This document shows positions 4,523 through 62,912 of a stretch of 64,000 nt of DNA, one piece after another (the stretch's first letter is position 1; each line of letters begins with the position of its first letter). A program made the translations under genes and the position numbers. Source of the DNA: Patiria pectinifera (Eukaryota > Echinodermata > Asteroidea > Valvatida > Asterinidae). The stretch is from assembly GCA_029964075.1 (NCBI GenBank), contig CM057149.1, positions 28,658,197-28,722,196 on the forward strand, written 5' to 3'. The notes under the pieces are model-generated. The model was not told where the DNA came from. It did not search any database and was given only the letters and a program-made list of their open reading frames with translations.

Positions 4523-4663
4523 TGTTACTTCTGTAGTCTCTGATCAGATTGAAAATGTTCTCCTAAGTTGAAAAAGTTCTACTGATGAAATTGGGAAATC
4601 CCTTGTAGCCAATATCATCACCAGATTCTACCAAAATGCAGAACGGAAGGGACGCTGGAAATC
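4520..4663 (-). CDS. Left gene exon 1: 5' UTR ending in the start ATG
   Basis: Acceptor CTTTTCAG, then GATTTCC; donor AACAATG|GTAAGG. The ATG at 4522-4520 is again the last codon. Spliced context ACAATGGGAG has A at -3 and G at +4. An in-frame TGA stands eight codons upstream, as in the right gene. Confidence 0.6.
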
Positions 4664-4862
4664 CTGAAAAGATTAGTAGATAAAGCCATAAATACGTTGG
4701 CATATAAACTTTATTTAAGCAGTTAAATTTGACTGAAATTTGACTTTTTTTCTTTATAGAATTCACCTCATAATAGAATTACTGAAATCGATCCATGTTA
4801 TCAAACGTTATGCACGCGTTTCAATAAACGAACCCATTTTATAGCTGTCCATGGAATGCCAT

Positions 4863-15496: not shown

Positions 15497-16850
15497 ATGA
15501 AGCCTACTTCAGAAGAAAAAAACGGGTATGTAAAATCAGACCTGCTATCCTCTCCATTGGCAAGTGCCGGGAGACTAAAATTACACACGGGCAACAATTG
15601 GTGTCAAATCAGTTCTGATAGGTGGATTCTAAACACCATATCAGGTTGTAAAATTGATTTCTTGAGCTGTCCAATTCAAACCACAAGACCTCAAAAGAAA
15701 TCCTTCAGTGATCAAGAATCACTTGTGATCAGTACTGAGATTAGTGAACGGCTGCACAAAAGTGCAATCAGAGAAGTTCCTCTGGCTGAATGCCAGTATC
15801 TGTCAAACATTTTTTCTGATAGCGAAAAAGACAGGTGGATTGAGACCAGTTATCAATTTGAAAGATCTTAACAAATTTGTGTCGTACGAACACTTCAAAA
15901 TGGAAAATATCAAAATTGTGAAAAACCTAATTCAAGTTAATGACTTTCTCACGTCATTTGACCTGAAAGATGCTTATATTTTAATTCCAATGTGTGAAAA
16001 GGATACACCTTATCTTTGCTTCTCTTGGGCAGAAAAATGTTCTGCTTTACTTGCTTACCATTTGGCTTATCACGTGGGTCATTTATTTAGATGACATCCT
16101 CATCATGTCTTCTTCAAAAGAAGAAAGCACCACCAACACTAATTTCGTGATAAACCTACTCCAAAATCTTGGATTTGAAATTAATTATAAAAAATCTTGT
16201 TTGATCCCTGAAACAAAAGTGACACCCTTGGGATTCATAATCAACTCAGATTCAATGTCAATTCACATCCCTAAAAGTAAGGTGGAAAAAGTCAAGTTGG
16301 AATGTAGACAGTTAATTTCCAAAAATTCAGTAAGCATCCGCCAACTGGCCAGATGTATTGGCCTCTTTGTTTCAACGTTTGAGGCCTTTCCGCAAGGAAA
16401 ATTACATTACCGACAGATGGAAGTTGCCAAAGTTAAAGCACTTCAGTCTGAATCGGGTAATTATGATGCACATATGGATACCACACCATTTCTTGAAGAA
16501 ATTCAGTGGTGGTTGACGGTTTCCTCTGGTGGAGTATATTGAAATATCAAATTACCATCCATCGATATTGTTATCTCCACGGATGCCAGTAAACTGGGAT
16601 GGGGAGCAGTCTGTCATACAGACAATTCTTATGCACAGGGTGAAAGACATCCGTAAAGTGGACAGACATCCATAAAAAGATTCATATTAATGTGTTGGAG
16701 CTCCTGGCTGTGCAAAATGCACTGCTCAGTCTGTGTTCACAGGTGCAAAATGCACATGTTCTCATAAAATCAGATAACAGCACGGCTGTAATCATACATC
16801 TCCAAAATGGGGGGATCTATGGTTTCCTTAAACCAGATTTCGACCACAAT
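15497..16850 (+). pseudogene. DIRS-like reverse transcriptase and RNase H, frameshifted
   Basis: AGRLKLHTGNNWCQISSDRW (typical DIRS start), then the RT blocks INLKDLNKFVSYEHFKME and FDLKDAYILIPM. YLDDILIMSS is the catalytic Tyr-x-Asp-Asp box in another frame. A final block, ISTDASKLGWGAV, near 16570 is RNase H. The blocks lie in at least three frames with stops between, so it is inactive. DIRS elements use a tyrosine recombinase instead of an integrase. Confidence 0.7.
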
Positions 16851-27995: not shown

Positions 27996-30900
27996 CTATG
28001 TATGGAGTATTTCCAGATTCGGTCGCTGCATTGAAGCTGTTTCAGATTCGTCAACAGAGTTTATAGACAGATCGAGCTTTACCAGATTCGGCATGTCACT
28101 CAGTGACGCAGCAATGTGCCGAATATCTCTAGCATACAGGGAACAATCCTGTAGGATGAGTTGTTTGAGTTGTTTCATGCACTTTAAGTGAGTCCATGCA
28201 TCCGAACCACCCAGGGATCTATTGAGAGACAAATCCAATTCAACTAGATTTGGCATGTCACTCAGTGACGCAGCAATGTGCCGAATATCGTTTTCTCTCA
28301 ATGAACAAGAACATACGACGAGTTGCTTAAGTTGTTTCAAGCACTTTAAACGAGACCATGCACCTAAATAACTCTGCGTAAAAAGTCGCCTAAGTTGATA
28401 TAAGAACTCTAAATGATCGCATGTATCTGAACCAGCCAGGGATGCATTTTTAGAAAGATCCAGTTTAATAAGATTGGGCAAGTCACTCAGTGATTCCATG
28501 TCTTGAAGTGTCAAAGAGCAAGACCTCAAGGTCAGTGTCTGAAGATGTTTTAGGCACTTTAAATGAGACAATGCATTGGAACCACCCAGGGACCTATTTC
28601 CAGACAGATCCAGTTCAACCAATGTAGGTGTGTCACTAAGGGATGCAGCAATGTGTTCAATATCCGCGCGTATTAATGAGCAGGATCGAAGCTTACATCG
28701 TTCAAGATGTTTTAGGCCATGAAAAGCATGTGACCATTCAGCTGCTGTGCCCCTAAGGCCGGAAATATCCTGCAATACCACTTCAACTAAGTCGTTACAA
28801 TTACCCAGGACCTTCAAAATATCTGTCGCATCAGATCCAGTGACTGACAACGAGAGCTTCATCCTTACGCCTCTTTCCATTCTTTTTAACTCAAAGAAAT
28901 TATCAATACTACACTGCACAAGAGTTGGCATACAGTCGCCTAATGCGGCAATATGTATCACGTCCTGTGCGCCTAAACCACAACGGTCTAGTGTGAGATT
29001 CTTCAGATGTTTCAGGCGTTGTAACTGAGACCAAGACGCACCAGACCCTGCTAGAGATTTATTTCCAGACAGATCCAGTTCAACCAATGTAGGTGTGTCA
29101 CTAAGGGATGCAGCAATGTGTTCAATATCCGCGCCTATTAATGAGCAGTATCGAAACTCACATCGTTCAAGATGTTTTAGGCCATGAAAAGCATGTGACC
29201 ATTCAGCTGCTGTGCCCCCCAGGCCGGAAATATCCTGGAATTCTACTTCAACTAAGTCGTTACGATTACCCATGGCCTTCAAAATATCTGCCGCATCGGA
29301 ACCGGTGACTGACAACATCGAGAGCTTCATCCTTACGCCTCTCTGCAATCTTTTCAACTGGAACAATTCACCAATACTAAACTGCGCAAGATTTTGCAGA
29401 CTGCCAGCTAATGCTGCAATGCGTATCACGTCCTGTATGCCTAAACTACAACCATCTAAATTGAGCTTCTTTAGTTGTTTTAGGCCCTGTATCTGAGACC
29501 AAGAAACACCTGAGCCTGCTAGAGATGTATTTCCAGACAGATCCAATTCAACCAAAGTAGTTGTGTCTCTAAGGGATGCAACAATGTGTTCAATATCCGC
29601 GCCTATTAATGAGCAGTATCGAAACTCACATCGTTCAAGATGTTTTAGGCCATGAAAAGCATGTGACCATTCAGCTGCTGTGCCCCCCAGGCCGGAGACA
29701 CATTGGAATTCCACTTCAACTAAGTCGTTACGATTACCCATGGCCTTCAAAATATCTGCCGCATCGGAACTGGTGACTAACAACATCGAGAGCTTCATCC
29801 TTACGCCTCTCTCCAATCTTTTCAACTGGAACAATTCACCAATACTACACTGCGCAAGATTTTGCAGACTGCCAGCTAATGCTGCAATGCGTATCACGTC
29901 CTGTATGCCTAAACTACAACCATCTAAATTGAGCTTCTTTAGTTGTTTTAGGCCCTGTATCTGAGACCAAGAACCACCTGAGCCTGCTAGAGATGTATTT
30001 CCAGACAGATCCAGTTCAATCAATGTAGTTGTGTCTCTAAGGGATGCAGCAATGTGTTCAATATCCGCGCCTATTAATGAACAGTATCGAAACTCACATC
30101 GTTCAAGATGTTTTAGGCCATGAAAAGCATTTGACCATTCAGCTGCTGTGCCCCCCAGGCCGGAAACATCCTGAAACACCACTTCAACTAAGTCGTTACA
30201 ATTACTTACGACCTTCAAAATATCTGCTGCATTGGATCCAGTGACTGACAACGATAGCTTCATCCTTACGCCTTTTTCCGTTCTTTTTAACTTAAAGAAA
30301 TGATCAATACTACACTGCGCAAGATTAGGTATACAGCCTGGTAATGCTGCAATGCGTATCACGTCCTGTATGCCTAAACTGCAACCATCTAAAGTGAGCT
30401 TCTTCAGTTGTTTCATGCGCTGTAACTGAGACCAACAAGTACCTAATGAGCTTCCTAGCGATTTATTTCCAGACAGATCCAGTTCAACCAATGTAGATGT
30501 TTCACTAAGGAATGCAGCAATGTGCTCAATATCCGCGCCTATTAATGAGCAGTCGTGTATTGTTAACTGCTTTAGGTGCTTCTTTAGCTGCGCTTTATTT
30601 AACAGTGGCATCCAAAAGCGTAAAGAATCCGTCAAACCATGACATCCTGATAGGTGAAGTTCAGTCAAGTAATTAGCCGTCTTGCCTAATTGTGATGCGA
30701 TGACTTTCATACTGTCATCAGTTAAGAAGCATCTGTTCAGTCGAATAACAGAAAGATTCTTCAGTGTCGCCACAGCGTTTGCTACGCCTTCACAACACCC
30801 TTCCATTAAGGTACATGATTCAAATGTTATTTCCTTAACTTTGCTAAGTTGATTGTTCCCTGTGTACTTTGACTGGTTGGCAACGTGCCTCAGAAACCAT

Positions 30901-32638
30901 CCGAAAATATTGATCTCGTCACTTCGGAAAAAATTTAAATCTATTGAATCAGTTATCACTGAATTTACGAATGTCATCGATAAAAGAGTTTTTGCCTGAC
31001 TTTCATAGTAACAATTCAGGGCAAGTTTTAACAGTGTTGTCCTCATGGATGCTCTGGACCTCGGGTATGAGGAATTTTCTAAAGGCGCGGATACATTATC
31101 TCTGACGGAATTTACTTTTTTCTCTACACATAATGGGAATGATTGATTCTCACTAAATCTCGCTGGCAACAACGTAGTACATGTATAAGTGTTACCAACT
31201 TCTTGCAACATCTGTAAGACATGTTTCGTGCATTCGACATTGTCACCACAGCAAAATCGCAGAATATATCGAAACCTTTCGGGGTCATTAAGTTTCACAA
31301 GAGCTTCCTCAAATTGATCAGCGTCTGTTTCTAGTAAGCTTTGAAGGTACTTAGCAGCACAAAACTCCTGAATTGTTTTGTGGATAAACAGGATACTGTT
31401 GTGACGGTCTAAGCTCTTTGAAACTATCTGCCTTGTGAGTATGCCAGCCTTCAAGGCTTTAACCAGAATACTCTTCTCAAACTCTCTTTCTTGGAATGAA
31501 AGCCGCTGTACTGGAGAGACCAGACCATACCAAGCAACCTTTCCAATTACTTTAACTATTTCTGATGCTACCTCCTCTGGTACACCTTTTCTTTGGAATA
31601 CATATCGCTCAACGTTACTATATAACCGCGATAGTGTGTCTGGTAGTGTGGAATCTTGTCTCCATAATAAACACATTAGTAGCAACATCATTGGGCTCTG
31701 CGCTATATCACACAAACCGTTTGAGGATTGAATCTTTTGGAAAAGGGCCTTGCCATCATCAGGTTTCTTAGAGAAAAATTTTCCTAAATAAGCTTCCATG
31801 TCCTCCTCACAGAACCCCATGACTTTCACATGGGTGAAAGGTTTTTCAATCAGTAATTTGCCGACCAAAGTAGAAAAATGGGAGGGACGGGTCGTTAGAA
31901 CCACATCAATATCAGCTCCGACCTTTCGATTGAGGATTTTTAGGATCGTGCCAAATGATTTCCTATTGAGTTCGGTTGTCATAAATTCATCGAAGCCATC
32001 CAGAAGAAGAAGCACCTTTTTAGGATTATTGAAGATGAACGTTTTTAGATGGTTCTTATCGATGACGTTTTCGTTGATGAGTTGATCAAAAATAGAGTCA
32101 ATAAAATCTGACATTTGATCCAGTGCGTTCATGTTTAGAACAAACACAAGTTTGTACTTCTTTGTTGTTTTGCAAACGCCAAGCGCCCAGTCGTACGCAA
32201 TTTTACCTATTAGTGTTGTCTTTCCCATACCGGCCTCTCCATTATAAATGATACGATTGATAACAAAACCATCTTCGTTTGCCACGAGGAAAGTATCCTC
32301 ATACAACATCTCTTTCCCCTTTTCATCACTCCACCCCAGTCCTTGATCATCACCATCACTGTCATCATCATTATCATCATCCCTAACTAATCGTACATTC
32401 GTGTATATTTTCTTGAAATGCTTCATGTCATCATCAATCCATGGATTCACCTGCACGTAACTGCCCGTGCTTCTGTATACCCCTTTAAGCGCCTCCTCAC
32501 ACATATCCACTGCAGCGTCTGCTGCTGCATCGATGGCCGGGCTGACATCTGGGCTGGTATCTTGACTGGTCCTTGTCGATGGACTACGTACCTCAGGTAG
32601 GACGTTTTGTACACTGGGTTGATCGTTTATCATGCCTG
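27996..32638 (-). CDS. Exon 18: NACHT, winged-helix and LRR region of the NLR
   Basis: One 4.6-kb exon of 1546 codons plus stop. The acceptor is a tandem CAGCAG, so the exon may begin at 32638 or 32635; both keep phase 1. An N-terminal acidic tract (DDDNDDDSDGDD) precedes the NACHT domain. Walker A is GEAGMGKTT (genomic 32240-32214), Walker B is VLLLLDGFDEF, and the sensor is VVLTTRPSH. The winged-helix region ends FIHKTIQEFCAAKYL, the classic NLR motif. Ribonuclease-inhibitor-type LRRs follow (LVELDLSGN, LKKLNLDGCSL and similar), including four nearly perfect 156-residue (468-bp) superrepeats. The stop is TAG at 27998-27996. A NACHT-LRR single exon is usual in sea urchin and related NLRs. 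The residues needed for ATP binding look intact. Confidence 0.93.
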
Positions 32639-35600
32639 CTGTTGAAAACGCAAAATAACAAAGACAGTAATTCCGGAGTAAAGATCGGTGTAATAAAAGA
32701 TTAAAAGATTGCTGCAAGGCGGAAAGTCAAGAGGTTGATTCTGTAGTTAGAATAAGGAAAGTAATTTTAATCTCGAAAACCATTTTCAGGAACGGGAAAA
32801 TAACTTTAAATTATGATTTAGATTACAGTGTCTATTAAAACGATTATTGTGGGTTTTTCAGCTGTCTGAAGGCCCCTTAGCAAATATACAGGCTTAGATA
32901 TGGACAATTGCAGTTACATTGTGATCTGCATTATGAAATATCAGCGATGTTAACATTATTTTCGAAGGCAAAGCCCAAACTGATCAAGGTATAGCTACCT
33001 CCATTCTGTTTCATTTCTGAAATGCGCATAATTTGATGAGCGGACATTTCGAACTTGAAGTTTTGGGAAGCCAAGAACTTCTTTACCTGCTGTTGCTCCC
33101 TGGACTGTCACATTCTGAGTGTATGTGTAATGGAACGTATTCCCAGTAGCTGGAGCGAAAAAGGCAGGACTACAGCTGCCACCGATGTTGACATCTCTCA
33201 CTGGTGGAGTAGGTTGAAGGGAGCCATACGACTGAGTATATACAGTAGACGGATGCTGCATGGCTGGATAGAGAGCTGAGGGTACCAAGTCTCGCACTAT
33301 ATACAGAATAGTATGGAGAATAGTATGGAGAACATGGCTCATAAAAATACAGAGATAAACTGAAGTAGATTGGTGAAAAAAAAGGAATACACGGAAAATA
33401 TTGTACAATGGATAGAAAAACCTTCACACTCGGTTCCCTTGGCCTCTCTGTTTGTTTGGTTTTTTTTTCAACTTGACCGTTAAAAGCAAAATTTCACTCG
33501 TTGCGAAAAGTCTGTGCTTGTAAAGAATAAAACAAATCAGAACGTTATAACTCCGGGTATAGTTCTCGTGTTTGTTGCAACTACACTAACATGGACCTAT
33601 GTTGCTCCCCGCCCGAGTGTCTGATTTCGTAAATGTTTTATTACGATCATGCAACAAAAAAAGTATTTTTTTCACAATAGACGTGAATTTTTTAACAATA
33701 AACATGTTATTTTCACAATAAATATGCAACAATAACAATAATTTGTACTGTCCATTAGACTGATTATACTCATGAATAAGCCAGCACCTTGGATATTTTC
33801 TCGTGTTCGATTCTCCTTGTCCACTCTCTCATGTTTATCACCGTGCCCCCGTCCCTGTTTTTCTTGCTCATGTGATGTCACCATCTGTTCTTGAGAGCTA
33901 TGCTTTCCTGCTCCATGTGTTGACTGAATATTGGGTAGGAAAAAGGAACGTCGACGATCACCAATCTGCTTCTTTTTCACTTTCTGTTTCTGTCTAATTC
34001 TCGGTTGCTCAGGTAACGTCAGCACACTTTGTTGGACCCCTGCCATTGTCTGTTCTTCTTCATGATGAATAGTTACGTGATGACTGGCCTGCTGCTGTTC
34101 ATTTGCCTTTCTTGTCCTCCTTGGATCCTTTTCAGTCCTAGTTCGTGAATTCCCTGAAGATAAGGAAAAATTACGTACGCAGGTAGGCCCACATCAAGTT
34201 TGGTTTACAAGATTTATTACTTCTCTAATTTGAGGTTAGGAAGTCACTTAGTGGGTTATTTTATTGGTTCTTATTGGTTCTTCACAAAGATTTATACTAA
34301 ATTCCAACCAACTCTTGAATGAATACATTCAGTTAATCGAATTATCTCTATAAAGCTATATATGCCCATCAACCAACTTGAAGACATTTGGAAATATAGG
34401 GTACCTGCGGCCATCATTATTCCCGCTATTCCAATACTTTGTTTGATAACCCCATGTATACACATTATAAGCCAATCGTTACACACTGGATTTACTTCTA
34501 TAAATACAAATACGTGTAAATAGACTTTACCTGCTGATTTCTGTTCATCATCAGCTCCGCCCTTTAACCCGGACACGAGGCGTAGCTCTATGTTAGCATC
34601 TTGCTCAATCGCCTGATCTTTGAGGGGAACCTCATCGTGTAGCTGAAAAAAGGAACATCATTTAACAAGTGTCTTAATTGAGTTAAGATGATTAATTCGA
34701 GACTTTTCAAAACCGAAACCTCCTAGGTGATGGCTAGCTAGAGTAACAAAGGTATACGGGATGGGAAAGGGAATCGACGAGTTTCAATTGTTAGAATAGC
34801 CAGTTTAAGTTAGACATTACCTCGTGGCGTTGTCTGATGAAAAGATGCTGCTTCTCTGGTTCAATCCCAAGTTGGTCATGACATTTGTCTTTTAAGGCTG
34901 ATGTAAGAGTTGATGGATGCAGTTGCAGACATATTGGTCCTATCAAAGAACTATTCACAAACAGCTGGATCGGGCGTTCTCCCCTCTCTTCACAGAATGG
35001 TTTCCTGACTGCATTTCCTCGTTCCGTTCTTGTCCGTGTTCTTCCTATAATGTGTGCAAAATATCATTTTTTTTTTAATTATTTTTTAAAGTATTTAATT
35101 TTAATGTTAACATAAAACAAACTTGGATTCATCTTCTGTAATTAAAGTATTTTACATGCTGGACAGGGGCAATGTTTAAGAGACTCTGTATCTTAAGTAA
35201 TAATGGCGTTAACTGGTCTTTGATTATCCAACCATATCAAAAATCACACAACGTTGGCCTATTTTACCTGACGGTACTTGTAGCATTTCCTTTGATGGCC
35301 TGTCTGGATGATTAGTTTGCTTTTGTTTCCGTGCTTCTTGCCCAGCACCTGCCCTCTTCTCTTGAAGGCTGCTCCGTTCTCTCTTGCTTTTGGATCTTAT
35401 TAGATCGCTAATCTGCTCCAGGCAGCCTTCATCCGATCTTCGTTGCCTCGCGGATATCGTCATAGTTTGTTGACAGATCTGTTCCCTGACCATGGCGCCT
35501 TGCTGCTTCCCTTTTTGAGGTCCGTTTGAAACACAAATCTTATCCTCTCCATGTTTCTCTTTCTCAGCTGATAGCTCCTTTACCTGTTTAAAGCTCTTAT

Positions 35601-38600
35601 CACTGTTCATTACCATTTCCCCATTCTCTTTCTGACAAAATTCTGCTTGATCCTCTCCGGTTCCACGTCTTTCTTTCAGCTGGGATAAACTTTCTGGCTG
35701 AGGACAGTCTTGTTCATCTGTCAGTCTCTGCTGCTCACGATCACGCGATGTTTCTTGTCGGTTGGTTTCCTTTCCACCTTCTATGCCTTGCCGTTTCTTC
35801 TGCTGAAGACTGTCTTTGCAATCCTCCATCTTACCAGGTGCCTGGTGTTGGGGGACCACATGGCATTCTAAAAAGCACAACAATAATAAGTACAATTAAT
35901 TTCTAAAACTCCTGTGTCATTGGAAAGATTGCGAATCGAGCAATGCTCAAAAATATATCTTGCTATTCGAAATAATATGATGAGTAACTGAAAAAAAATA
36001 CGATCTTGAGAAGAGAAAATGAAAGAAAATTACTTACGGAATTGCCTCACCTGACATGCTGTGGAACCTTTATTCAATAAATTGAAATCATATTTAGTGC
36101 CCAGGAGAAATAATCGCCCTGATTGAGACTGCATGTAAAACAAACAAAACATCTTACCAGATTTTGATTGGTCAGTAGCGGCGACATCGATTGATGAGGA
36201 GATGGAGGAATCCTTCGAGTTCACTTTATCTTCTTCATGAAGACATGTGTCCGCATTAACAGATGGAGATTTCTTGGCAGCTCGTCTTCTTCCTTCCCTT
36301 GTCTTTCTTCTCATCTTCTTCGTCATTCTTGTCTTTTGTGTTCTTCCTGTAAGTTGAAACAAACAAGCGTTTTCAAGATATCAACATGAGGTCTGCTTTG
36401 AATGAACTAAACCCCTGAAAATGTATTAGTCAGAATAGAACTTTTATACCAGTCTTTCATGATTCGTTTAGTTCCCAGTTTTATTATATTTTTGCGAGTA
36501 TGTGAATTTTTTTAGATTTTTAGATAATGCCAGCCCTTATATTTTTCATGCATTATTTTATTTTTTGTTGTTGTAAATCGTGTACAATTTAGCCTTCTGG
36601 TCACCACACATGAGCTTTAAATACACTAGTAGTAATAATACCAATAGTAACTTATGGCTGTCTCAAACATTATGCAGTTGCGACAGTTCACAGCATCACC
36701 CGATGATGTCCATCAATCATTGCATCAAGTTCAAGATCAAGATTTACCTGCTGATTTCCGTTCACCGGCAGCTCTACCCATCAACCAGGATACCAGGTGT
36801 ATCTCTATGTTAGCATCTTGCTCATCATGGGGCTTGAAAGGGAAAAATTCAACTTGTTTAATCAAGTGAATAGAAACGATCCATTCAATACATTTTAAGA
36901 CTATAAGCGTGTAATTGCAAGCTATACAGCGACACAATTATGGGATAACGAATCTTAGATTAACAGACAGACGTTACCTTGTCGTGTCGTCTGGTGAAAT
37001 GATGTTGCTTCTCTGGATCAACCCCAGATTGGTTTTGAAGTTTTCTTTTCAAGATTGTGATCAAAGTGGCTGGACCCATTTGTAGACATATTGGTCCCAT
37101 CGAAGTACTATTCACAAAGAACTGGATCCGGCGTTCTTTGTTCTCTTTACATGCAGGCTTCTTTTGAGCACCAGTTCGTTCCCTTCTTGTCTTCGTTTTT
37201 CCTATATCGTAGATAATTACAAGTGTAATTTGAAGACGTCATTTTTTTTTAAACACTGATTAGATAGCGACTTAATATGAACTTAAGAATATTCTTTCAG
37301 ATACTCTCAAAATTCATCTGCTGTACATGTTGAATTGGCGAACTTAGTGTTTCTAGTGACATTCAGGGGAACGTTTTAAAGACTCGATATAAGATGCTGA
37401 ACATGCAGGAAAATATCCCAACATCACAAGGTATATTTACCTGAAGGTACATGCATATCTTCCTTTGACAGCCGATTTGTATGATTAACTTGCTTCTGTT
37501 TCTGTGTTTCTCTCACTGGAGGTGACCTCTTCTCCTGAAGGCAGGTCTGTTCTTTCTTAGTTTCGGATCGTTTTAGATCTCCAACCTGCTCAAGTGTGTC
37601 TTTAGCCGATCTTTGTTGCTTTGACCACGTCGTCATCTCTTGTTGACAGATATGTTCCCTGACCACTGCGCATTGCTCTTTCTGAGGCCCGTCTGGATCA
37701 CAAGTCTGCTCCTCTCCATGCTTCTCTTTCTCAGATGATAGCGCCGTTGCTTGCTTAAAGCTCTCATCACTGTTCTTTACCGTTTCCCCATTCTCTTTCT
37801 GACAAGCGTCTGTATGCTCTCTTACATGTCTTTCTTTCTCCTGGGATGTCAGTTGAGAGTCTTTACCTTTGACCGCGGTTACTTCGCAGATCTCTGGCTG
37901 AGGACTGTCTTGTTCATCGGTTAGTCTCTGTTGCTCACGCGATGTCTCTGTATCTTCTTGGCTGATGTCCTTTCCACCATCCGTGCCTTGCTGTTTCTTC
38001 TGCTGAAGACTGTCTTTGCAATACTCCATCTGACCAGGTGCCTGATTTTTGGGGACCACATAGCATGCTAAAAAGGACCACAACAATGTTAAGTACGATT
38101 AATTTCTAAACCTATGTCACTGGGAAGACTGCGAATCGAGAATTTAGTTCCATTCTAGACTTTATGGGATCAAATACCAGTTTACTATACTATCAGAATG
38201 AACACTGTACCTTTTGATTTGCCATTAGAGATGGCAGTGGGTGACTGGGAAACAGGGGAATTCCTTAAGATATCTGAGATGTCATACTCTTCATCAACCG
38301 TGGCTGTGTTATCATTGGCTTCTTCGTTAGATGGAGATTTCTCGGCAGCTTTTCTTCGTCTTTTTCTTATCCTCCCTGAAGAAAATATTCCTTAAAAAGA
38401 TCAATATTTTGAACATCTTTGATCAATTGCTCGCAAAGATAGGTTGTTGAGGGATGAGAACAAAATACCCCAGCAGTCTTATGCACTTGCTCTCATTTAT
38501 GTGATGAAATCTACCTTTACACTAGTTCTCCTAAAGTTCACATTTTCTTTTTGAAAAATCTTTATTCCATTTAAGCGCGTAAACGGTGTTTTATAGAGAG

Positions 38601-41294
38601 CTTGCCAAACTCCAATTCATCAGACTTATTCAGAACCTCTTTTTCAAGATTAAGCTGAAGGCAGAAACAATTACTAAAATGGCTCTTCAAGTCAACCAAT
38701 AATTGATGGAAATGCACACTGAACCTACTGAAATGTAACGTAAAGCTAGGGCTTTACCAGACTTAGATTGATTACTGGCGGCTTCAACTCCTGAAGAGGT
38801 GGGGCAATCTCCTGCTTCCGCTTTGTCTTCATCACGTGAGGTAGTCTGTGCAGATAGAGATTTTCCTCTCGCTTTTCCTCGTCTTCTTCTTGTTCTCCTT
38901 TTCGCTACGGAATATCAACCAGGGAGTACGAAAGTGAGCACGTTTTAAGTTCATTGGATGTGGACTGAGATAGAGTTTAGGTCCCTTTAAGCAAGCAAGA
39001 GGTTCCGAAAGGTTTTGAATTTAAACCACACGTGACAGGGCAAATCAGACTACTACTACTTTACCATGTTTTGCTGTAGAGGTAGTCGAGCAGCCCGATT
39101 CGCCTGATGGATCTTGCTCTTCACCACATGCAGATGTTTGTAGTCTACGGTCTTCTGTAGCTGAAGAAAGTGTGGGAATCAAACGAAGAGAACATATGAA
39201 CAGGATGACTGTGATTGTGATCAGTAGGAGGTGCATAATCTACAGCAGTAGGTCGAGTTATGACTAGACTTTGACGGGATGCTGTCTTAAAGTGGGTGCT
39301 GATTGGGTTTTGGAATCTTTCGAATGATCAGATTTTCGGTGAAGATACCTCAGCCAGATTATGTTTTTCTCCATCTTCTGTACATGATAGTTTCTTGTCT
39401 TTTTTCGTCTTCTCTAATGTGCTGAATGTGTGTTCTTTAGAAGCATGCAGCCAACTTGTTAACTGTTTAGAAAACTCATCAAAATAACCTATACTGGGCA
39501 CTGAAGACTGAACATGACTTTTTTTGTATCAGGAAAATATTTTACCTTTTGATGGGTTGCTTATCTCTTGCCCACTTGTTGAATAAGTAGATGCACCCTC
39601 CGAGTGATTTGAGTTGACGGCGTCTTTATTACCCAAAGTAGGCTTTTTGTCTTTCTCTTCTTCAGATGAAGATTTGTTGCCCGACTGCCTCTTTCTTCTT
39701 CTCTTCTGTTTCCCTGCAGGTTGAGACGTTAAAGGTTTCTATAAGACAGCCAGCTCTACAGTATAAACACAGATAGTGTGCATAAACCTACATACTGCCT
39801 CACATGTTCATTTCTGTTGATCAGATCAATAAATCAACCTGTGCTGTAAAGGCCTACCTGACATGAATCTATGTACAGACTTTACCTGTTGATTTGTGTT
39901 GATCACTTCCATCCATCAAGTCAGACACTAGGCGTAAGTCTATCTTGGAATCTTGGACAATCCCATGGTCCTTTAGTGATAATTCATTGCGAAGCTATAA
40001 AAAAAAAAACGATAAAGAAGCATTTGTTTTCTCGGAAAGATCCACAAATGAATAAACCTTGGTAACTCTACCATAATAAACATGGCAGTAATTCGTGTAG
40101 GGAAGGGGAAAACACAATCAGAGTTGTATTATTTTTATACAATGAAAATGAACATTGGGTGAAGTCCAGATTTACCTCATGATGTCTCTTTGTGAATAGA
40201 TGTTGCTTTTCTGGTTCAATCGATAGTTTTTCTTGTAGTAATCCTTTCAAGGCTGAGATAGTGGTGGAAGGATGCAGCTGCAGACACAGAGGTGACCTTG
40301 AAGAGCTTCTCACGAGCAGCTGGATCTCACTGTGAAAACGTAACAATCAGGTCCAAAGAGCTTAACTTGATGTCATACTTTAAGAAATTCTTGCATCGAA
40401 ACACTTAGAGGCAGAATTTTATATTAGAATTATGCCATGGGGCCCCCTTTTTTGTTGTTTTTCTTTTTACTTTGTATGGATTTCTCCGAAATGTTCCCCT
40501 CTCTCCCTTATCATTTCTTTAAGGAATGAAACTTCCGCTTACTCATTTACGTCTGTAGGCCAGACGTACTATCTCATTTGTTTTTCACGAATCACCTTCA
40601 AGTGAAAAAAAAGATGTAACATGCTACACTTTGGGACATATATTGGAGTTTCATCAATTGAACAGCTAACTACCTGCATTGAGTATCCTCAGCTGAAGTT
40701 GCCCTTAGGTTGCACGATGGTGATGAAGATGTATCCTCGAACTTGTTCCGGGAAAGCACAGACAGAAATATCGTATTCCTAGACTTTCGAATCTTTCTCT
40801 TTCTCGTGACCATCTTGGCCAGCGAGTGATCGTTGATGACCCGAGCAGCCCTCTTGGCATCCTCCAAGTCTGCGAGGGTCCTCAAAGGTACCAGGAATTC
40901 CCCCTTAAGACAAATACATACAAAATATAGACCATCTACGGGTATATACACAAAGATTATTATAGACGAGTAAGGAGCATCTTCTATTCGATTTTGTTTG
41001 TAGTTCTGTACCGGTAAATTGTTATTGATGAATCGATCCGATTGAAAGGGTAAAGAACCTTACGTCTGCAAATATGCCTACAATTGCATTTATGTCAACG
41101 TGCAAACACAGATAGATTTTTGTTATATGTTTGCTACCAACGTATTGTTTAGTACAGCTTTTCTGTAAAAACCTGCACCTCGAAAACATTATTCCTAACT
41201 TTGAAACAAGAACATAGAAGATGCTCATATGAATACAGTGAGTACTGTTTTACAGTCAAATTTGTTTTCATCACTATAAACATTTCCTTACCAT
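27996..41294 (-). CDS. Ubl-array NACHT-LRR receptor (whole predicted CDS span, 18 exons)
   Basis: Predicted intracellular NLR-type immune receptor. Eighteen exons with GT-AG borders and matching phases join into one open frame of about 2783 codons. Approximate residues: 1-77 N-terminal basic domain; 78-165 Ubl1; 166-357 four basic/Ser-acidic exons; 358-566 Gln/Glu/Lys-rich; 567-669 Ubl2; 670-732 basic; 733-932 Gln/Glu/Lys-rich; 933-1044 Ubl3; 1045-1166 basic linker; 1167-1236 Tyr/Thr/Asn-rich linker; 1237-2783 NACHT, winged helix and LRRs. NACHT proteins are STAND ATPases that oligomerise on ligand sensing; the Ubl domains take the place normally held by CARD, PYD or DEATH. The Ubls are internal and lack a terminal Gly-Gly, so I infer they act as binding modules, not as conjugated modifiers. 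The single-exon NACHT-LRR part is very secure. Joining it to the Ubl exons is inference from phase, order and strand; two genes (Ubl gene and NLR gene) remain possible. Confidence 0.7.
28640..30530 (-). repeat. 468-bp tandem superrepeats in the LRR exon
   Basis: Four head-to-tail units with a period of exactly 468 bp (156 residues) can be aligned by the recurring block GADIEHIAASL, at about 28640, 29108, 29576 and 30044, with a diverged partial unit near 30512. Each unit holds LRRs, the spacer QDVIRIAAL, the block MKLSMLSVTGSDAADILK and AAEWSHAFHGLKHLERC. The units at 29108 and 29576 are nearly identical at the DNA level, so they arose recently or are kept alike by gene conversion. Confidence 0.9.
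33087..33296 (-). CDS. Exon 17: Tyr/Thr/Asn-rich linker before NACHT
   Basis: A 210-nt phase 1-1 exon with acceptor TATATAG and donor GCAG|GTAAAG. It encodes a Pro/Tyr/Ser-rich segment (YPAMQHPSTVYTQSYGSL), then GGSCSPAFFAPATGN, then FHYTYTQNVTVQGATAG. The second half is low in charge and rich in Tyr, Thr, Asn and Gln, unlike the charged exons upstream. Linkers of this style occur just upstream of NACHT domains in some invertebrate and fungal NLRs. An amyloid-like role is only a guess. Confidence 0.6.
33788..34153 (-). CDS. Exon 16: basic Gln/His-rich linker
   Basis: A 366-nt exon with acceptor TCTTCAG. It starts GNSRTRTEKDPRRTRK, then a Gln/His-rich part (NEQQQASHHVTIHHEEE), a second basic cluster (RQKQKVKKKQIGDRRR), and a Lys/Gln/Glu-rich end. 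The proposed donor (ATCCAAG|GTGCTG) is weak but is the one that gives phase 1 and so joins exon 17 in frame. The frame runs open past it, so the exon end is less sure than the others. Confidence 0.5.
34531..34642 (-). CDS. Exon 15: ubiquitin-like domain 3, second part
   Basis: A 112-nt exon (phase 0 in, phase 1 out) encoding LHDEVPLKDQAIEQDANIEL, then RLVSGLKGG and a tail ending KSAG. It completes Ubl3 (Leu-Lys-Asp-x-x-Ile and the last beta strand). A Gly-Gly does follow the last strand by two residues, but the chain continues without a break, so processing is not implied. Confidence 0.8.
34821..35044 (-). CDS. Exon 14: ubiquitin-like domain 3, first part
   Basis: A 224-nt exon (phase 1 in, phase 0 out). 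After a basic extension starting GRTRTRTERG come IQLFVNSSLIGPICLQLHPS, the helix segment TSALKDKCHDQLGI and PEKQHLFIRQRHE. The ubiquitin turn Pro-x-x-Gln-x-Leu and the helix Leu-Lys are kept. Donor CACGAG|GTAATG. Confidence 0.8.
35268..35867 (-). CDS. Exon 13: Gln/Glu/Lys-rich domain, copy 2
   Basis: A 600-nt phase 1-1 exon with acceptor CTTTTTAG and donor TCAG|GTAAAA, encoding about 199 residues. It starts CHVVPQHQAPGKMEDC and shares with exon 9 the blocks DSLQQKK, QRLTDEQD, CQKENGE, SFKQ and EKEKHGE. The spacer therefore arose by exon duplication together with the adjacent Ubl pair. Predicted charged and low complexity; function unknown. Confidence 0.7.
36158..36346 (-). CDS. Exon 12: basic/Ser-acidic spacer exon
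   Basis: A 189-nt phase 1-1 exon with acceptor CTTACAG and donor TCTG|GTAAGA. It has a long basic start (GRTQKTRMTKKMRRKTREG), then RRRAAKKSPS, a middle stretch with Asp, Glu and Ser, and ends TDQSKSG. It belongs to the same exon family as exons 5, 7 and 8 and lies between Ubl2 and the second Gln/Glu/Lys-rich exon. Confidence 0.6.
36748..36832 (-). CDS. Exon 11: ubiquitin-like domain 2, shortened second part
   Basis: An 85-nt exon (phase 0 in, phase 1 out) encoding PHDEQDANIEIHLVSWL and a tail ending KSAG. Against Ubl3 (LHDEVPLKDQAIEQDANIEL) it lacks nine residues: the loop and the Lys-Asp-x-x-Ile turn before the last beta strand. The reading frame is kept. The fold of Ubl2 may be weakened, or the domain may be degenerating. 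Confidence 0.65.
36978..37201 (-). CDS. Exon 10: ubiquitin-like domain 2, first part
   Basis: A 224-nt exon (phase 1 in, phase 0 out). It opens with a basic extension GKTKTRRERTGAQKKP, then RIQFFVNSTSMGPICLQMGP, the helix segment and PEKQHHFTRRHDK. It has the same length and extension as exon 14, so Ubl2 and Ubl3 are closer to each other than to Ubl1. The Leu-His-Pro-Ser of the other Ubls is replaced by Met-Gly-Pro-Ala. Confidence 0.75.
37441..38067 (-). CDS. Exon 9: Gln/Glu/Lys-rich domain, copy 1
   Basis: A 627-nt phase 1-1 exon encoding about 209 residues. It starts CYVVPKNQAPGQM and is very rich in Gln, Glu, Lys and Asp, with segments such as KDSLQQKKQQGTDGGKD, QRLTDEQDSPQPE and SFKQATALSSEKEKHGEE. 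It is predicted to be long and charged, either disordered or part coiled coil. Exon 13 is a clear duplicate (same start, same QRLTDEQD and CQKENGE blocks). No known family recognised. Confidence 0.7.
38211..38375 (-). CDS. Exon 8: basic/Ser-acidic spacer exon
   Basis: A 165-nt phase 1-1 exon with acceptor TTCTTCAG and donor AAAAG|GTACAG. It encodes GRIRKRRRKAAEKSPSNEE, then an acidic and Ser-rich tail ending NGKSKG. The AAEKSPS motif is repeated in exon 12 as AAKKSPS, which shows the exons are duplicates of one another. Confidence 0.6.
38758..38904 (-). CDS. Exon 7: basic/Ser-acidic spacer exon
   Basis: A 147-nt phase 1-1 exon with acceptor CCGTAG and donor TCTG|GTAAAG. It starts with an Arg-rich run AKRRTRRRRGKARGKS, then SAQTTSRDEDKAEAG, and ends ASNQSKSG. 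It is the same exon family as exons 5, 8 and 12. The basic start could serve as a nuclear localisation signal. Confidence 0.6.
39065..39160 (-). CDS. Exon 6: short acidic spacer exon
   Basis: A 96-nt phase 1-1 exon (acceptor TCTTCAG, donor CATG|GTAAAG). It encodes ATEDRRLQTS, then an acidic Gly/Ser-rich stretch with two Cys, ending TAKHG. It lacks the basic start of its neighbours. Support is only its open frame, splice sites and matching phase, so it is the least secure of the spacer exons. Confidence 0.5.
39546..39713 (-). CDS. Exon 5: basic/Ser-acidic spacer exon
   Basis: A 168-nt phase 1-1 exon with acceptor CCTGCAG and donor AAAAG|GTAAAA. It starts GKQKRRRKRQ, a nuclear-localisation-like cluster, followed by KSSSEEEKDKK, a Ser/Thr/Asn-rich tail and SKG at the end. 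It is one of a family of short exons (5, 7, 8, 12 here; 229-399 and 1-106 in the left locus) built on the same plan: Arg/Lys cluster, Lys-Ser, acidic/Ser stretch, Ser-Lys-x-Gly. Confidence 0.65.
39886..39994 (-). CDS. Exon 4: ubiquitin-like domain 1, second part
   Basis: It encodes LRNELSLKDHGIVQDSKIDL, then RLVSDL. This matches the end of the ubiquitin fold (Leu-x-Asp-Gly-x-x-Leu-x-Asp-Tyr-x-Ile ... Leu-x-Leu-x-Leu). The usual terminal Arg-Gly-Gly is absent and the chain continues into MDGSDQHKSTG, so the domain cannot be processed and conjugated like ubiquitin. Acceptor TTTTTATAG, donor AACAG|GTAAAG, phase 0 in and phase 1 out. Confidence 0.8.
40176..40329 (-). CDS. Exon 3: ubiquitin-like domain 1, first part
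   Basis: The exon (phase 2 in, phase 0 out) encodes a beta-hairpin start EIQLLVRSSS, then LCLQLHPSTTISALKGLLQE and EPEKQHLFTKRHHE. This follows the ubiquitin pattern: strand, strand, the Thr-Ile-x-x-Leu/Val-Lys helix, then the Pro-x-x-Gln-x-Leu turn. In ubiquitin the matching turn is P-D-Q-Q-R-L-I-F. The domain is completed by exon 4 across a phase-0 intron placed where ubiquitin has its Lys48 loop. Confidence 0.8.
40674..40903 (-). CDS. Exon 2: conserved N-terminal domain of unknown family
   Basis: This 230-nt exon (phase 0 in, phase 2 out) encodes about 76 residues beginning GEFLVPLRTLADLEDAKRAA. A helix-like first half is followed by a strongly basic stretch (RKRKIRKSR), a possible nuclear localisation or nucleic-acid contact, and a Ser-rich tail. 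The left paralogue exon at 3234-3463 has the same length, and by my count 65 of 76 residues are identical, with most changes in the last 15. I do not recognise the family. It sits directly before Ubl1. Confidence 0.7.
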
Positions 41295-43442: not shown

Positions 43443-43751
43443 CAAGGGCGGATCCGGGGGGGGCAAAGGGGGCCATGCCCCCTTCCCTCCAAAACGAAAC
43501 CAATTTTTTTTTATGTGACATCGCAATAAAGGCAGGCAATGAGTACACCACCATCTTTTCCTCAAAAAAAAACGTTGGTTAAAGTGGTCAGAAATTGCCT
43601 CAGATCGCACCACAGAGCATTTAGAATCCAAAAAAATTTCGGGGCCCTTCAGCAGGCCCTGAACCCCATGCCGTAATTTTTTCAACCCACTTTTTGGGGG
43701 ACCAAAATTTATTTTGGCCCCCCAAACAATTGTGTTCTGGATCCGCCCTTG
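43443..43751. mobile_element. hAT-like MITE with perfect 8-bp target duplication
   Basis: Ends CAAGGGCGGATCC and GGATCCGCCCTTG, flanked by TGGAAAAT on both sides (43435-43442 and 43752-43759). Same family as 9250-9502. No coding capacity. Confidence 0.85.
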
Positions 43752-44617
43752 TGGAAAATAAAAGGACTCTTATTTTCATTCAAGAGTTATTTTTTCGAAG
43801 CAAAGTTGCAAACCAAAGACAACGACTTCTGTCAACATTTTATGACAACGTAGGTGTAGTCATGTATACATGACGCTATTTCAACACTTGTAATTTCATC
43901 GAAAGAGTTGGCATACTCTTCGGGTCAGAGTTTTGCTTTGAACTAAATGAACCAACAATCCAGGCATTATATTTCGAGGTCACAGTTTATACTCCTACGT
44001 AGACTATTCGAGGCTAGCAGCGCGACAAACATGTGCAGTTGGTTTTGTTATCAAATACAGTGTCATTGTGTGAACTTTGAAAAATGTTTTCCATTTTTCG
44101 GTGAAGCTTTTCACTCTTGTACAAAAGATGTGCGTCACTGATTTGAATGACAATGACTCTGAACAGGTTGCGCAAGTTGAGGGAAAACCCAAGCTGACGC
44201 AGTGATTTAGGGACCTTATTCGCACCTTGTTCCTTTTAGAATGTAAGCTGCTTCAAAGTATCATTTTCTTTCAAGTACAAGGTGCCTATGTGTGATTTTG
44301 TGGGCAATGTTAATCCAAATGGCCCCATATCACATGTCTGAAACTCAAGTTCAACCTTTATATAACCAAAGATACCAAGATTGTAATTAGTAGGGTTTTC
44401 CGTCCCTACCTAATTCTGTGGGAATTCCATAAAATATTCTCCTGGGGTGTTCCTCCCGACTCTAACACTGTAATTACCCATCACTGTCTTCTTTGGCTTT
44501 AAAGCTAAGTGCCTAAGGCACGTTTGAGGAATCCTAGGTTTCATTACCAGAAATACAATTGAAAATCATCATTTAAAAAGTAGGTGACCAACTGATTTCC
44601 AAAACAGAAGCCACAAA
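43515..44617. repeat. 1.1-kb tandem duplication, unit 1
   Basis: This unit and the next (44618-45719) are nearly identical over about 1103 bp. Unit 1 begins at GTGACATCGCAATAAAGG within the hAT MITE and ends CAGAAGCCACAA. Confidence 0.85.
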
Positions 44618-45719
44618 GTGACATCGCAATAAAGGCAGGCAATGAGTACACCACCATCTTTTCCTAAAAAAAAACGTTGGTTAAAGTGGTCAGAAATTGC
44701 CTCAGATCGCACCACAGAGCATTTAGAATCCAAAAAAATTTCGGGGCCCTTCAGCAGGCCCTGAACCCCATGCCGTAATTTTTTCAACCCACTTTTTGGG
44801 GGACCAAAATTTATTTTGGCCCCCCAAACAATTGTGTTCTGGATCCGCCCTTGTGGAAAATAAAAGGACTCTTATTTTCATTCAAGAGTTATTTTTTCGA
44901 AGCAAAGTTGCAAACCAAAGACAACGACTTCTGTCAACCTTTTATGACAACGTAGGTGTAGTCATGTATACATGACGCTATTTCAACACTTGTAATTTCA
45001 TCGAAAGAGTTGGCATACTCTTCGGGTCAGAGTTTTGACTTGAACTAAATGAACCAACAATCCAGGCATTATATTTCGAGGGCACAGTTTATACTCCTAC
45101 GTAGACTATTCGAGGCTAGCAGCGCGACAAACATGTGCAGTTGGTTTTGTTATCAAATACAGGTCATTGTGTGAACTTTGAAAAATGTTTTCCATTTTTC
45201 GGTGAAGCTTTTCACTCTTGTACAAAAGATTTGCGTCACTGATTTGAATGACAATGACTCTGAACAGGTTGCGCAAGTTGAGGGAAAACCCAAGCTGACG
45301 CAATGATTTAGGGACCGTATTCGCACCTTGTTCCTTTTAGAATGTAAGCTGCTTCAAAGTATCATTTTCTTTCAAGTACAAGGTGCCTATGTGTGATTTT
45401 GTGGGCAATGTTACAAATCCAAATGGCCCCATATCACATGTCTGAAACTCAAGTTCAACCTTTATATAACCAAAGATACCAAGATTGTAATTAGTAGGGT
45501 TTTCCGTCCCTATCTAATTATGTGGGAATTCCCTAAAATATTCTCCTGGGGTGTTCCTCCCGACTCTAACACTGTAATTACCCATCACTGTCTTCTTTGG
45601 CTTTAAAGCTACAGTGCCTAAGGCACGTTTGAGGAATCCTAGGTTTCATTACCAGAAATACAATTGAAAATCATCATTAAAAAGTAGGTGACCAACTGAT
45701 TTCCAAAACAGAAGCCACA
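44618..45719. repeat. 1.1-kb tandem duplication, unit 2
   Basis: Direct repeat of 43515-44617. It carries only the right part of the MITE, so the duplication happened after the MITE inserted. Confidence 0.85.
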
Positions 45720-47043
45720 ACTTTTAGTGAATCTACACAAACATAATAATATAAACCTTTAAAATATTCTGGCTGTCATTCTGCTATGCGGGCAAATATT
45801 TCACCTATCGCCTTCAACGCTGTACAGGCAGACAAGCTAAGTATTATTTTTACACACAATATTATTTTTATTTAAAAAAACCCTGGATATTTTTGAAATT
45901 TGTGACTTTAAAATTTTGTCTCTAAACAGGAAGTGTGACATTGGAGATATTGAATTGAATTGATAATTTTGTTATATTACATCCCATGAAATAATGTGTG
46001 CTTTGTTGTCATTAAGAAGAAACCAATATAATGTAGGTGGTTTTCAAGGACTCTATTAATTAATAAATTCCTCGTTTGAATCTACACACATTAGAGATAG
46101 GCCTATAGCATCACTTTAGAGATTGTACTCCCACGAAGTTAGGGCCTTCTATAGGCTTCTTCATTAGCGCGACTTCCAAAATTATTCAAGTGGCTTATGG
46201 TAAAAAATCATATAGCATATGCAATTTCGGGTACATTCTTTGAACATTTTAGGGATTATTAGCGAAACACTATTAAACTCAAATCCTCTTAATGCCATTT
46301 TTTCTTCACCACAAAATTGTTTTTTTGGGGGGTATTGTTTATTTGCTTAAATTAAGAAGGTACAATTGAATACCAATTTTGCTAGACTTTTTGGTGGGCA
46401 GGGCGTCCATTTGGATATAGTTGACGAAATATATAGGCCCAAAAGGAGAGCCATTTATCAGGATTTTTTCCAGTAGATGAAAAGTTTGAATTGAGAATTA
46501 CATGTTGGAACTACATTTTGGACAAAGCTTCTCTTCTTGGGGACACCTTTCATAATTTGGGAGAGTGGGAAAAATGAAATTACAAAATACTACATTGTAC
46601 ATAATTAATCCAAACTCAAGTCCATTTGGTTTTTTAATTTTGCCTTGGCAGTCGAATCAGTAATAAAAAGGCAAAATTGTAAGTTGTATTTCGCTTTTAT
46701 GCGAGAGGAAGTACAAGTATTTTATTTTATTATTATTTTTAAATGGGAGTGGTGCAAATGTACAATTTTGTCCTTTAAATAAAGTTTGTTTCACTAAAAT
46801 GAGAAACCAGAGCTGGGACGTCTATTCTTTGAAGCAAATCCAGCACATTCATGGAAAACTTTAGGATGGATTAATGTGGGTTTTTTTAATTCAGAGGAGG
46901 GACCAAAAAAAAACAGAGAAAATGAGTAAATTGATAAAATTTGAACAATTAGGTTTGAATGTCAATTGAAGTTGTCAAATGATACTATAGCAATTTGAGA
47001 TACGTTCACATTTACAGATGTATATAGTAGCCTAAGCTGTGTT
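45720..47043. other. AT-rich noncoding DNA
   Basis: No gene or repeat recognised. Confidence 0.45.
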
Positions 47044-50564: not shown

Positions 50565-55562
<4,998 letters not shown>

Positions 55563-57560: not shown

Positions 57561-58259
57561 TTAGAAGTAGAAATCTTGCTTTGCCTCTTTCTGGGAGTGC
57601 AATACTCCTCTGCGGAATACTTGGGTGATGGTCGTTACCTCAATATGATCTGCCATCTCCCCAGCTGGGTCTTCACTTTCTGTGGAGGAGCTCACTCGGG
57701 GCACCATCTCGGTGTGAAGCTGCCTAAGCAGCTTCAATGACTTTCCCCCAGTCTTGGGGTGGCCAGTAGGAGTGGAGGTTGAGGGGGAACCACGCGGGGA
57801 TGGGACAGGGAGGAGTTGCAGCTCCGGCTCCGGTGGCAGGATGGATGGAGAATCGGGTACTCGAGGCTTGGCTGAGGTGGAGCAATCCTTCCCAACATAG
57901 TGCAACTGGGACTCGGCATGGCGGTGCAAGCTGGAGTTCCTGGTGAACCGCTCCCCGCACGTGCTGCAAGCGAAGGGCAAGGCCTCCCTATGTCTCTCCT
58001 TTTCATGTCGGACCAGGCTGGCTCGAGAGGTGAATTTCTTCCTGCAACCACCCACATGGCAAGGGAAGGAGGTGGTGGCTGGCGGGCGTGTCACGGGAAT
58101 CTTGGCCTCAGGCTTCTGGGGATGGGCGCTTGGTGTTGAGCTGCTCTTGTGATGATGACTGCTCGTTCTAGGGCGTTTGCTGGCCCCGTCATCCCCCGGT
58201 CGCTTCTCGTCACGCCGCTTGCCGGCCGATGGCTTGTCACCATGGTTGCCCCTAGGCAT
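57561..58259 (-). CDS. Extra C2H2 zinc-finger ORF of the Ty3/gypsy element
   Basis: It encodes a basic, Ser/Pro-rich protein of about 232 residues with two C2H2 fingers: CHVGGCRKKFTSRASLVRHE (Cys-x4-Cys form) and CSTCGERFTRNSSLHRHAES. The likely start is MPRGNHGDK at 58259. The frame stays open further upstream, but there it runs through a 12-bp minisatellite and a small palindromic insertion. It lies between the integrase and the 3' LTR on the same strand, where some elements carry env or accessory genes. Function unknown: DNA or RNA binding is inferred from the fingers only. Confidence 0.6.
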   Translation of the reverse strand: MPRGNHGDKPSAGKRRDEKRPGDDGASKRPRTSSHHHKSSSTPSAHPQKPEAKIPVTRPPATTSFPCHVGGCRKKFTSRASLVRHEKERHREALPFACSTCGERFTRNSSLHRHAESQLHYVGKDCSTSAKPRVPDSPSILPPEPELQLLPVPSPRGSPSTSTPTGHPKTGGKSLKLLRQLHTEMVPRVSSSTESEDPAGEMADHIEVTTITQVFRRGVLHSQKEAKQDFYF

Positions 58260-58354
58260 GGTGGACAGTGGAACTGTACTACTGTAGGTTGTGGAAACGG
58301 CGGTGGCTGTGGTGGCTATAGTGGCTGCGGTGGCTATAGTGGCTGCGGTGGCTA

Positions 58355-58513
58355 TCCGGTTCGTAAGTGACTTCGTCATACACGCGCACGCACCACTGAT
58401 TACGAGCGCCCATTGGATGAACACTCAAGTTGCGTTAACTTCCGGTTCCATTGGTGCCATGCTACACCATGTACAGTAAGTTGAGATGACGTCACACTTA
58501 CGAACCGGATAGT
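58355..58513. repeat. Small palindromic insertion
   Basis: ATCCGGTTCGTAAGTGACTT and its near-complement lie about 130 bp apart at 58355 and 58488, flanked by copies of TAGTGGCTAT. Probably a MITE inserted just upstream of the zinc-finger ORF. Confidence 0.5.
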
Positions 58514-62835: not shown

Positions 62836-62912
62836 GAATACCCCATATGAAGCAACTTCACTTGGTAGTGTTACTGGGTGGAGCTGCTTGCTTGGAAGTT
62901 CTCCACCATCCT

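Follow-up and report, generated by a model that had tools for sequence, protein, structure and literature searches.

A 64,000-nucleotide stretch of the genome of the sea star Patiria pectinifera (the window; C21:28658197-28722196 of a 613.5-Mb genome) carries, as judged from its sequence, a real animal NLR (nucleotide-binding domain and leucine-rich repeat receptor) gene that has an N-terminus made up of ubiquitin-like domains (Ubls) and lies within a large, partly tandem set of Ubl-NLR genes. The Ubl array and the exon encoding the NACHT domain and leucine-rich repeats (LRRs) are predicted to form one gene, with a probability of about 0.93.

Gene model and domain identity

The window gene runs along the minus strand from 41294 to 27996 in 18 coding pieces, separated by GT-AG introns and consistent in phase, that give a frame of 2782 residues whose sole stop is the terminal one. 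This agrees with the sequence-only reading, a first annotation of the stretch, which had proposed about 2783 codons in one frame with junctions in phase and whose exon coordinates proved correct to a few bases, the NACHT acceptor falling at 32635 or 32638 in a repeated CAGCAG. Of the 17 exons that follow the start codon, 15 have stops in both other frames, and the remaining two, 39160-39065 and 38904-38758, each leave one alternative frame open. The start codon is followed by an N-terminal exon, Ubl1, four linker exons, and a long charged linker (A), and then by Ubl2, a basic linker, a copy of the long linker (B), Ubl3, two linker exons, and the NACHT-LRR exon. Each Ubl is encoded by a pair of exons (40329-40176 with 39994-39886, 37201-36978 with 36832-36748, and 35044-34821 with 34642-34531). 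The pieces, in window coordinates, are as follows.

41292-41294, minus: start codon, the last codon of a mostly 5′ untranslated exon (about 41441-41292), with the GT donor GTAAGG next and in frame with the following exon
40674-40903, minus: N-terminal exon with the motif LEDAKRAARVINDHSLAKMVTRKRK, phase 0 in and phase 2 out, without a Pfam family
40176-40329, minus: Ubl1 first exon; Pfam PF00240 at 7.9e-7 (29.2 bits) with both exons joined; PDB ubiquitin matches
39886-39994, minus: Ubl1 second exon, phase 0 to 1, ending LMDG, without a diglycine
39546-39713, minus: basic linker exon, phase 1-1, GT-AG
39065-39160, minus: linker exon, phase 1-1, GT-AG
38758-38904, minus: basic linker exon, phase 1-1, GT-AG
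38211-38375, minus: basic linker exon, phase 1-1, GT-AG
37441-38067, minus: long charged linker exon A, phase 1-1, duplicated as linker B
36978-37201, minus: Ubl2 first exon, in phase; matched (E 1e-22) by a profile built from the remaining Ubls of the family
36748-36832, minus: Ubl2 second exon, in phase, about 9 residues short in the alignment
36158-36346, minus: basic linker exon, phase 1-1, GT-AG
35268-35867, minus: long charged linker exon B, phase 1-1, copy of linker A
34821-35044, minus: Ubl3 first exon; Pfam PF00240 at 3.7e-5 (23.8 bits) with both exons joined; PDB ubiquitin matches
34531-34642, minus: Ubl3 second exon, in phase, ending LKGG-ADDEQKSAG, the diglycine being retained in relatives
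33788-34153, minus: charged linker exon, phase 1-1, with weak similarity in relatives (E 9e-14 to 0.047)
33087-33296, minus: linker exon before NACHT (SYGSLQPTPPVRDVNIGG...), phase 1-1
27996-32635, minus: NACHT-LRR exon with the stop codon (27996-27998); Pfam NACHT at 7e-25 and LRR families; PDB NLRP3 and NLRC4

Pieces of linkers A and B are 83% and 86% identical in DNA. The basic linkers were also considered as nuclear-localisation signals, an idea left unsupported by the count of K[KR]x[KR] motifs (4, where shuffled sequences averaged 3.5 and 956 of 2000 reached at least the observed number). A 1.1-kb direct duplication, 98.5% identical, lies upstream of the first coding exon (window 43515-45720), and a further candidate 5′ exon near 48.1-48.3 kb.

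The NACHT-LRR exon matched PF05729 with 88.2 bits against a cut-off of 26.7 (7e-25), both Walker A (GEAGMGKT) and Walker B (LLLLDGFDE) motifs are present, and the LRR families LRR_4, LRR_8, LRR_1, and LRR_6 were above their Pfam cut-offs. The NACHT region resembles vertebrate NLRP3 and NLRC4, whose structures it matched in PDB (best E 2e-19). These two receptors carry a PYD or CARD in place of Ubls.

Against the Pfam ubiquitin family (PF00240, curated cut-off 25.4 bits), the whole N-terminal part of 1237 residues matched at 5e-11 and 42.6 bits in two stretches, the best covering residues 84-149; taken singly, Ubl1 was above the cut-off at 29.2 bits and Ubl3 just below it at 23.8. Paralogous Ubls scored 26.5 bits on chromosome C21, which holds the window, 27.7 on C17, and 28.7 on C20. 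The PDB sequence matches of Ubl1 and Ubl3 were ubiquitin, and the Ubls were 28-38% identical to human ubiquitin over the aligned part. A Ubl profile gave 46.0 bits to ubiquitin, 20.5 to NEDD8, and 15.9 to FUBI, and descent of the Ubls from FUBI rather than ubiquitin was accordingly unsupported. The Ubls differ from ubiquitin itself in being internal and flanked by linkers, in that K48 and K63 are not clearly retained, and in a tail of GL(M/K)GG where ubiquitin has LRLRGG.

NLRs normally begin with a CARD, PYD, DEATH, BIR, or TIR domain, but Pfam gave no death-fold, CARD, PYD, BIR, or TIR family at E ≤ 1 in the N-terminal part or the NACHT-LRR exon. The same search returned no FIIND, ZU5, or UPA, and the Death domains of the C17 relatives, searched against the window, gave a best E of 1.6. 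The N-terminal exon had no Pfam family above cut-off, and Rfam gave no match in the window.

Recurrence and layouts of Ubl-NLR genes

Candidate exons were sought across the genome, with 150 of 198 candidates scored for Ubl first exons (weakest listed E 0.69) and 30 of 590 for the closest NACHT exons. A NACHT family model supplied a further list of 101 of 439 candidates scored, all above its cut-off; in a control with 14 well-known microbial genomes this model gave matches in 11, above cut-off in 3. Among the matches listed, a same-strand Ubl exon lay no more than 10 kb upstream of 24 of the 30 closest NACHT exons, against 0/30 for the opposite strand. Ubls within 10 kb downstream on the same strand (8/30) are read as belonging to the next gene of a tandem array. 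For the family-model NACHTs the corresponding listed matches were 23/101 upstream, 4/101 downstream on the same strand, and 0/101 on the opposite strand, and 77 of the 150 listed Ubls had a listed NACHT within 30 kb downstream. The placement of a Ubl array 5′ of NACHT-LRR on one strand, as first noted in the window, recurs in the same order and strand in relatives. What did not survive is the idea of an isolated novelty, as the same genome holds many Ubl-NLRs, some with DEATH domains.

In the DNA examined, upstream Ubls were present in 14 of the 16 stretches with C21 paralogs, in the neighbour gene at the other end of the window, and in all six C17 genes (6/6), and their number varied among genes. 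No Ubl was found in the 10 kb each of L014 and L021 (both on C21), in the next 6 kb beyond L014 (L036), or in the one C11 stretch of 6 kb; a listed Ubl lies 16.9 kb upstream of the NACHT of L021. A counterpart of exon 33296-33087, placed between AG and GT and 56-63% identical, was present in 10 of the 16 C21 paralog stretches.

Three chromosomes carry three layouts: Ubl array-NACHT on C21, DEATH-Ubl-DEATH-NACHT on C17, and Ubl-DEATH-NACHT on C20. The C17 gene L029 joins in phase a DEATH domain, a linker, a Ubl, a second DEATH domain with a long linker, and the start of NACHT over 870 residues with no stop, with Death above the Pfam cut-off twice and the Ubl once. In the C20 gene L037, which was picked for its Ubl and so does not count as independent, a Ubl, a DEATH domain, and NACHT are spliced in phase over 636 residues with no stop, all three above cut-off. 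Pfam Death matches in relatives reached 8e-14, 1e-9, and 2e-11, and NACHT in one relative 2e-22; no Death domain was found in the C21 stretches examined (best E 1.5). A second Ubl occurs further upstream in L032 and L034. The phases of the Ubl unit are 2-0-1 (entry, split, exit) in window Ubl1, L029, and L037, with window Ubl2 and Ubl3 entered in phase 1. We read this pattern as an old Ubl module that is common to NLR lineages and was probably multiplied in the C21 set. The Death domain of L037 (1354-1767) was also above the Pfam cut-off for bacterial Death-like domain 3 (29.1 vs 27.1 bits).

Several observations weigh against a single, widely repeated Ubl-NLR gene structure. Of the three Ubls originally proposed, Ubl2 is degenerate, with about 9 residues missing in the alignment and no Pfam match alone. 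No listed Ubl lies within 10 kb of most family-model NACHTs (78/101) or of 6 of the 30 closest NACHT exons; for two of these six, a Ubl is listed at a distance of 16.9 and 22.5 kb. In 6 of the 16 C21 stretches no counterpart of the exon before NACHT was matched (at least 50 residues, E 1e-5), and a methionine stands at the aligned NACHT exon start in 12 of the 18 C21 NACHT exons compared, making a separate start possible. This last point, with an ATG two bases into the window's own NACHT exon, would suit two adjacent genes, one of Ubls and linkers and one of NACHT-LRR, misread as one. Such a misreading is very improbable, however, given the 24/30 co-location on one strand alone, the retention in phase of the intervening exon 33296-33087 in 10/16 stretches, and the structure of L029, where the equivalent linker shares an exon with DEATH and where Ubl, DEATH, and NACHT join in phase.

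Selection, the diglycine, and possible functions

Rates of nonsynonymous and synonymous substitution were compared as dN/dS by the Nei-Gojobori method among paralogs, the pairs of which are not independent. The median was 0.31 for the Ubl first exon (21 rows; 99% of the 195 pairs usable out of 207 lay below 1) and 0.24 for its second exon (16 rows; all of the 111 usable out of 117 lay below 1), indicating that the Ubl exons are under purifying selection. For the N-terminal exon, dN/dS was 0.09 over 60 codons between the window and the neighbour gene, and 0.09, on very few changes, between L016 and L023; the four cross comparisons, whose lengths differ, were set aside.

Because the Ubls occupy the position of an NLR signalling domain, the leading reading, at somewhat under even odds, tentatively takes them as N-terminal docking modules that are clustered by NACHT oligomerisation and recruit ubiquitin-binding partners. 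On sensing of a ligand by the LRRs, the NACHT ATPase would oligomerise and bring the N-terminal Ubls together as a multivalent platform resembling a ubiquitin chain, which would recruit proteins with ubiquitin-binding domains, such as NF-kB-type adaptors, a LUBAC-like ligase, or autophagy receptors. The platform would add to death-fold signalling in the DEATH-containing layouts and would replace it in the window layout. The hydrophobic patch of ubiquitin is just partly retained (L8 replaced by S in most rows, I44 mostly by Y or F, V70 retained), a point against simple mimicry, and classic ubiquitin-binding domains might therefore fail to bind.

Shuttle proteins carry N-terminal Ubls, and the Ubls of the window gene could instead serve as proteasome-docking or turnover modules, with N-terminal degradation setting the level or activation of the receptor. 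This is unlikely, although intact-looking Ubls under purifying selection occur in most relatives examined and CARD8 offers a precedent, being activated via proteasomal destruction of its N-terminal fragment according to passages of PMC9213247. No fragment released in that manner would be expected given the Pfam result for FIIND, ZU5, and UPA, and three Ubls exceed what a shuttle protein needs.

Plant NLRs contain integrated decoys of effector targets, as PMC9528084 and PMC5067614 describe, and the Ubls might similarly be integrated baits that imitate ubiquitin, so that pathogen proteins targeting ubiquitin for binding, modification, or cleavage would act on them and thereby trigger the receptor. 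The preference of the Ubl profile for ubiquitin (46.0 bits) over NEDD8 (20.5) and FUBI (15.9) and the differing Ubl number between genes in the stretches examined are consistent with baits. Such a role is nonetheless distinctly unlikely, since selection on the Ubls is purifying and not diversifying, since Ubls adjoin DEATH domains in other clades, which fits a signalling role, and since the text of the plant papers PMC12787737 and PMC5067614 contains no ubiquitin-like integrated domain. Both groups have an extra domain fused to an NLR, whereas the Ubl here is in the usual signalling position and common to many relatives.

A diglycine at the position of ubiquitin G75-G76 was present in 24 of 24 NACHT-proximal Ubls examined and in 4 of 9 other Ubls (Fisher p 5e-4, with paralogs that are not independent). 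The 24 comprise 16 from C21, including the window and neighbour genes, six from C17, L037, and L038. In the window gene, the LKGG of Ubl3 is internal, and Ubl1 (LMDG) and Ubl2 (LMGR) are without a diglycine. Because the diglycine is found in 24/24 NACHT-proximal Ubls, the suggestion that the Ubls link sensing to ubiquitin signalling without conjugation cannot be assumed; the NACHT-proximal diglycine could serve as a hinge or as a site of processing.

If it is a processing site, a deubiquitinase-like protease would cut after the diglycine and part the N-terminus from NACHT-LRR. The contrast of 24/24, on three chromosomes, with 4/9 speaks for such cleavage, but the tail reads GLMGG, GLKGG, or GLLGGG where ubiquitin has LRLRGG, the glycines could be a flexible hinge, and the copies include many close paralogs and some identical sequences, so that we regard processing as rather doubtful. 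An extension of the same idea, improbable in our estimation, is that the NACHT-proximal Ubl works like the junction of a ubiquitin fusion, where host or pathogen enzymes that cleave behind the diglycine of ubiquitin would detach the Ubl/DEATH part from NACHT-LRR, the NLR acting as a deubiquitinase tripwire.

Animal NLR signalling is conceived as working via death-fold, BIR, or TIR N-termini. In this one animal, numerous NLRs have Ubls in the signalling position, with or without death domains and with conserved splice phases, and these fusions suggest an unusual wiring of pathogen sensing to ubiquitin biology. If the Ubls signal, the NLR would be a ready-made ubiquitin-like scaffold needing no prior ubiquitination, and if they are baits or cleavage sites, the receptor would guard the ubiquitin system itself.

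Known systems, the neighbour gene, and other features of the window

The Ubl-NLR architecture is, on this evidence, real, recurrent, and little described as far as the literature was searched. No NLR with Ubl-NACHT-LRR or DEATH-Ubl-DEATH was found in the titles and abstract openings listed by full-text searches of open-licence PMC papers, a set that does not cover the main sea urchin immune-repertoire papers. The NLRD receptors (DEATH-NACHT-LRR) of sea urchin and amphioxus, as presented in passages of PMC11508797, are alike in their NACHT-LRR core and large expansion, and the C17 and C20 relatives also have Death domains upstream of NACHT; they are unlike in that the Ubls here stand beside the Death domain or replace it, and no word beginning with ubiquitin, Ubl, or UBQ occurs in PMC11508797.

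For the sponge Dysidea avara, the legend of figure 2 in PMC12909245 includes UBQ in the domain list for bona fide NLRs, a term that, as that paper uses it, does not require the usual N-terminal death-fold, BIR, or TIR domain. The sequence-only reading had known of no NLR with an internal Ubl array; neither such an array nor DEATH-Ubl-DEATH is described in section 3.3 or the other passages of PMC12909245, but ubiquitin domains within NLR architectures do have this sponge precedent.

Among echinoderms, the sea cucumber NLRs with Ig domains (PMC13133943 and PMC8699970) also pair an NLR with an unusual partner domain, which is Ig in place of Ubl, and these texts contain no word beginning with ubiquitin or Ubl. 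Six sea cucumber NLRs with 'other domains' are reported in a passage of PMC8913654. No word beginning with ubiquitin occurs in PMC2575513, PMC4986451, PMC12787737, PMC13133943, PMC8699970, or PMC11797021, and in PMC8913654 and PMC5067614 ubiquitin words appear in unrelated contexts alone. Bacterial Ubl systems are mentioned in a passage of PMC8195603.

The window also contains the 5′ part of a neighbouring Ubl-NLR gene.

1447-4678, minus: neighbour Ubl-NLR gene, 5′ part, with an ATG exon at about 4678-4512, an N-terminal exon at about 3463-3234, and a first Ubl at 2383-2234 and 1557-1447

The ATG exon region of the neighbour (4678-4512) is 74% alike to window stretch 41456-41284. The neighbour gene has three Ubls and the same N-terminal exon, its other Ubls and NACHT lying beyond the window (L009-L012). 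The motif LEDAKRAARxINDHSLAKMVTRK of this exon is found in the window gene and also in L016 and L023, where it again precedes the first Ubl. In a tree of the Ubls, the first Ubl of the window gene paired with the first of the neighbour (92/92) and the second with the second (90/76), and the third Ubl of the neighbour grouped with this second pair and not with window Ubl3. Since the first and second Ubls pair between the genes, on branches below the program's own support bar (which 1 of 15 inner branches met), the tree hints that the array predates the window/neighbour duplication. A third tandem copy, L038 (C21:28790400-28795399), has a Ubl3 region about 85% identical in DNA to that of the window; its NACHT is truncated and runs into the LRR in another frame, and it is apparently a degenerate copy.

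Elsewhere in the window, a reverse-transcriptase remnant lies on the plus strand (15729-16539), and an isolated exon-like segment of an ABC transporter ATPase (1e-7) on the minus strand (54140-54427). A Gypsy-type retrotransposon on the minus strand (58928-63021) has protease, reverse transcriptase, RNase H, and integrase in open frames, and an open frame with two C2H2 zinc-finger stretches (57564-58424, minus) adjoins it.

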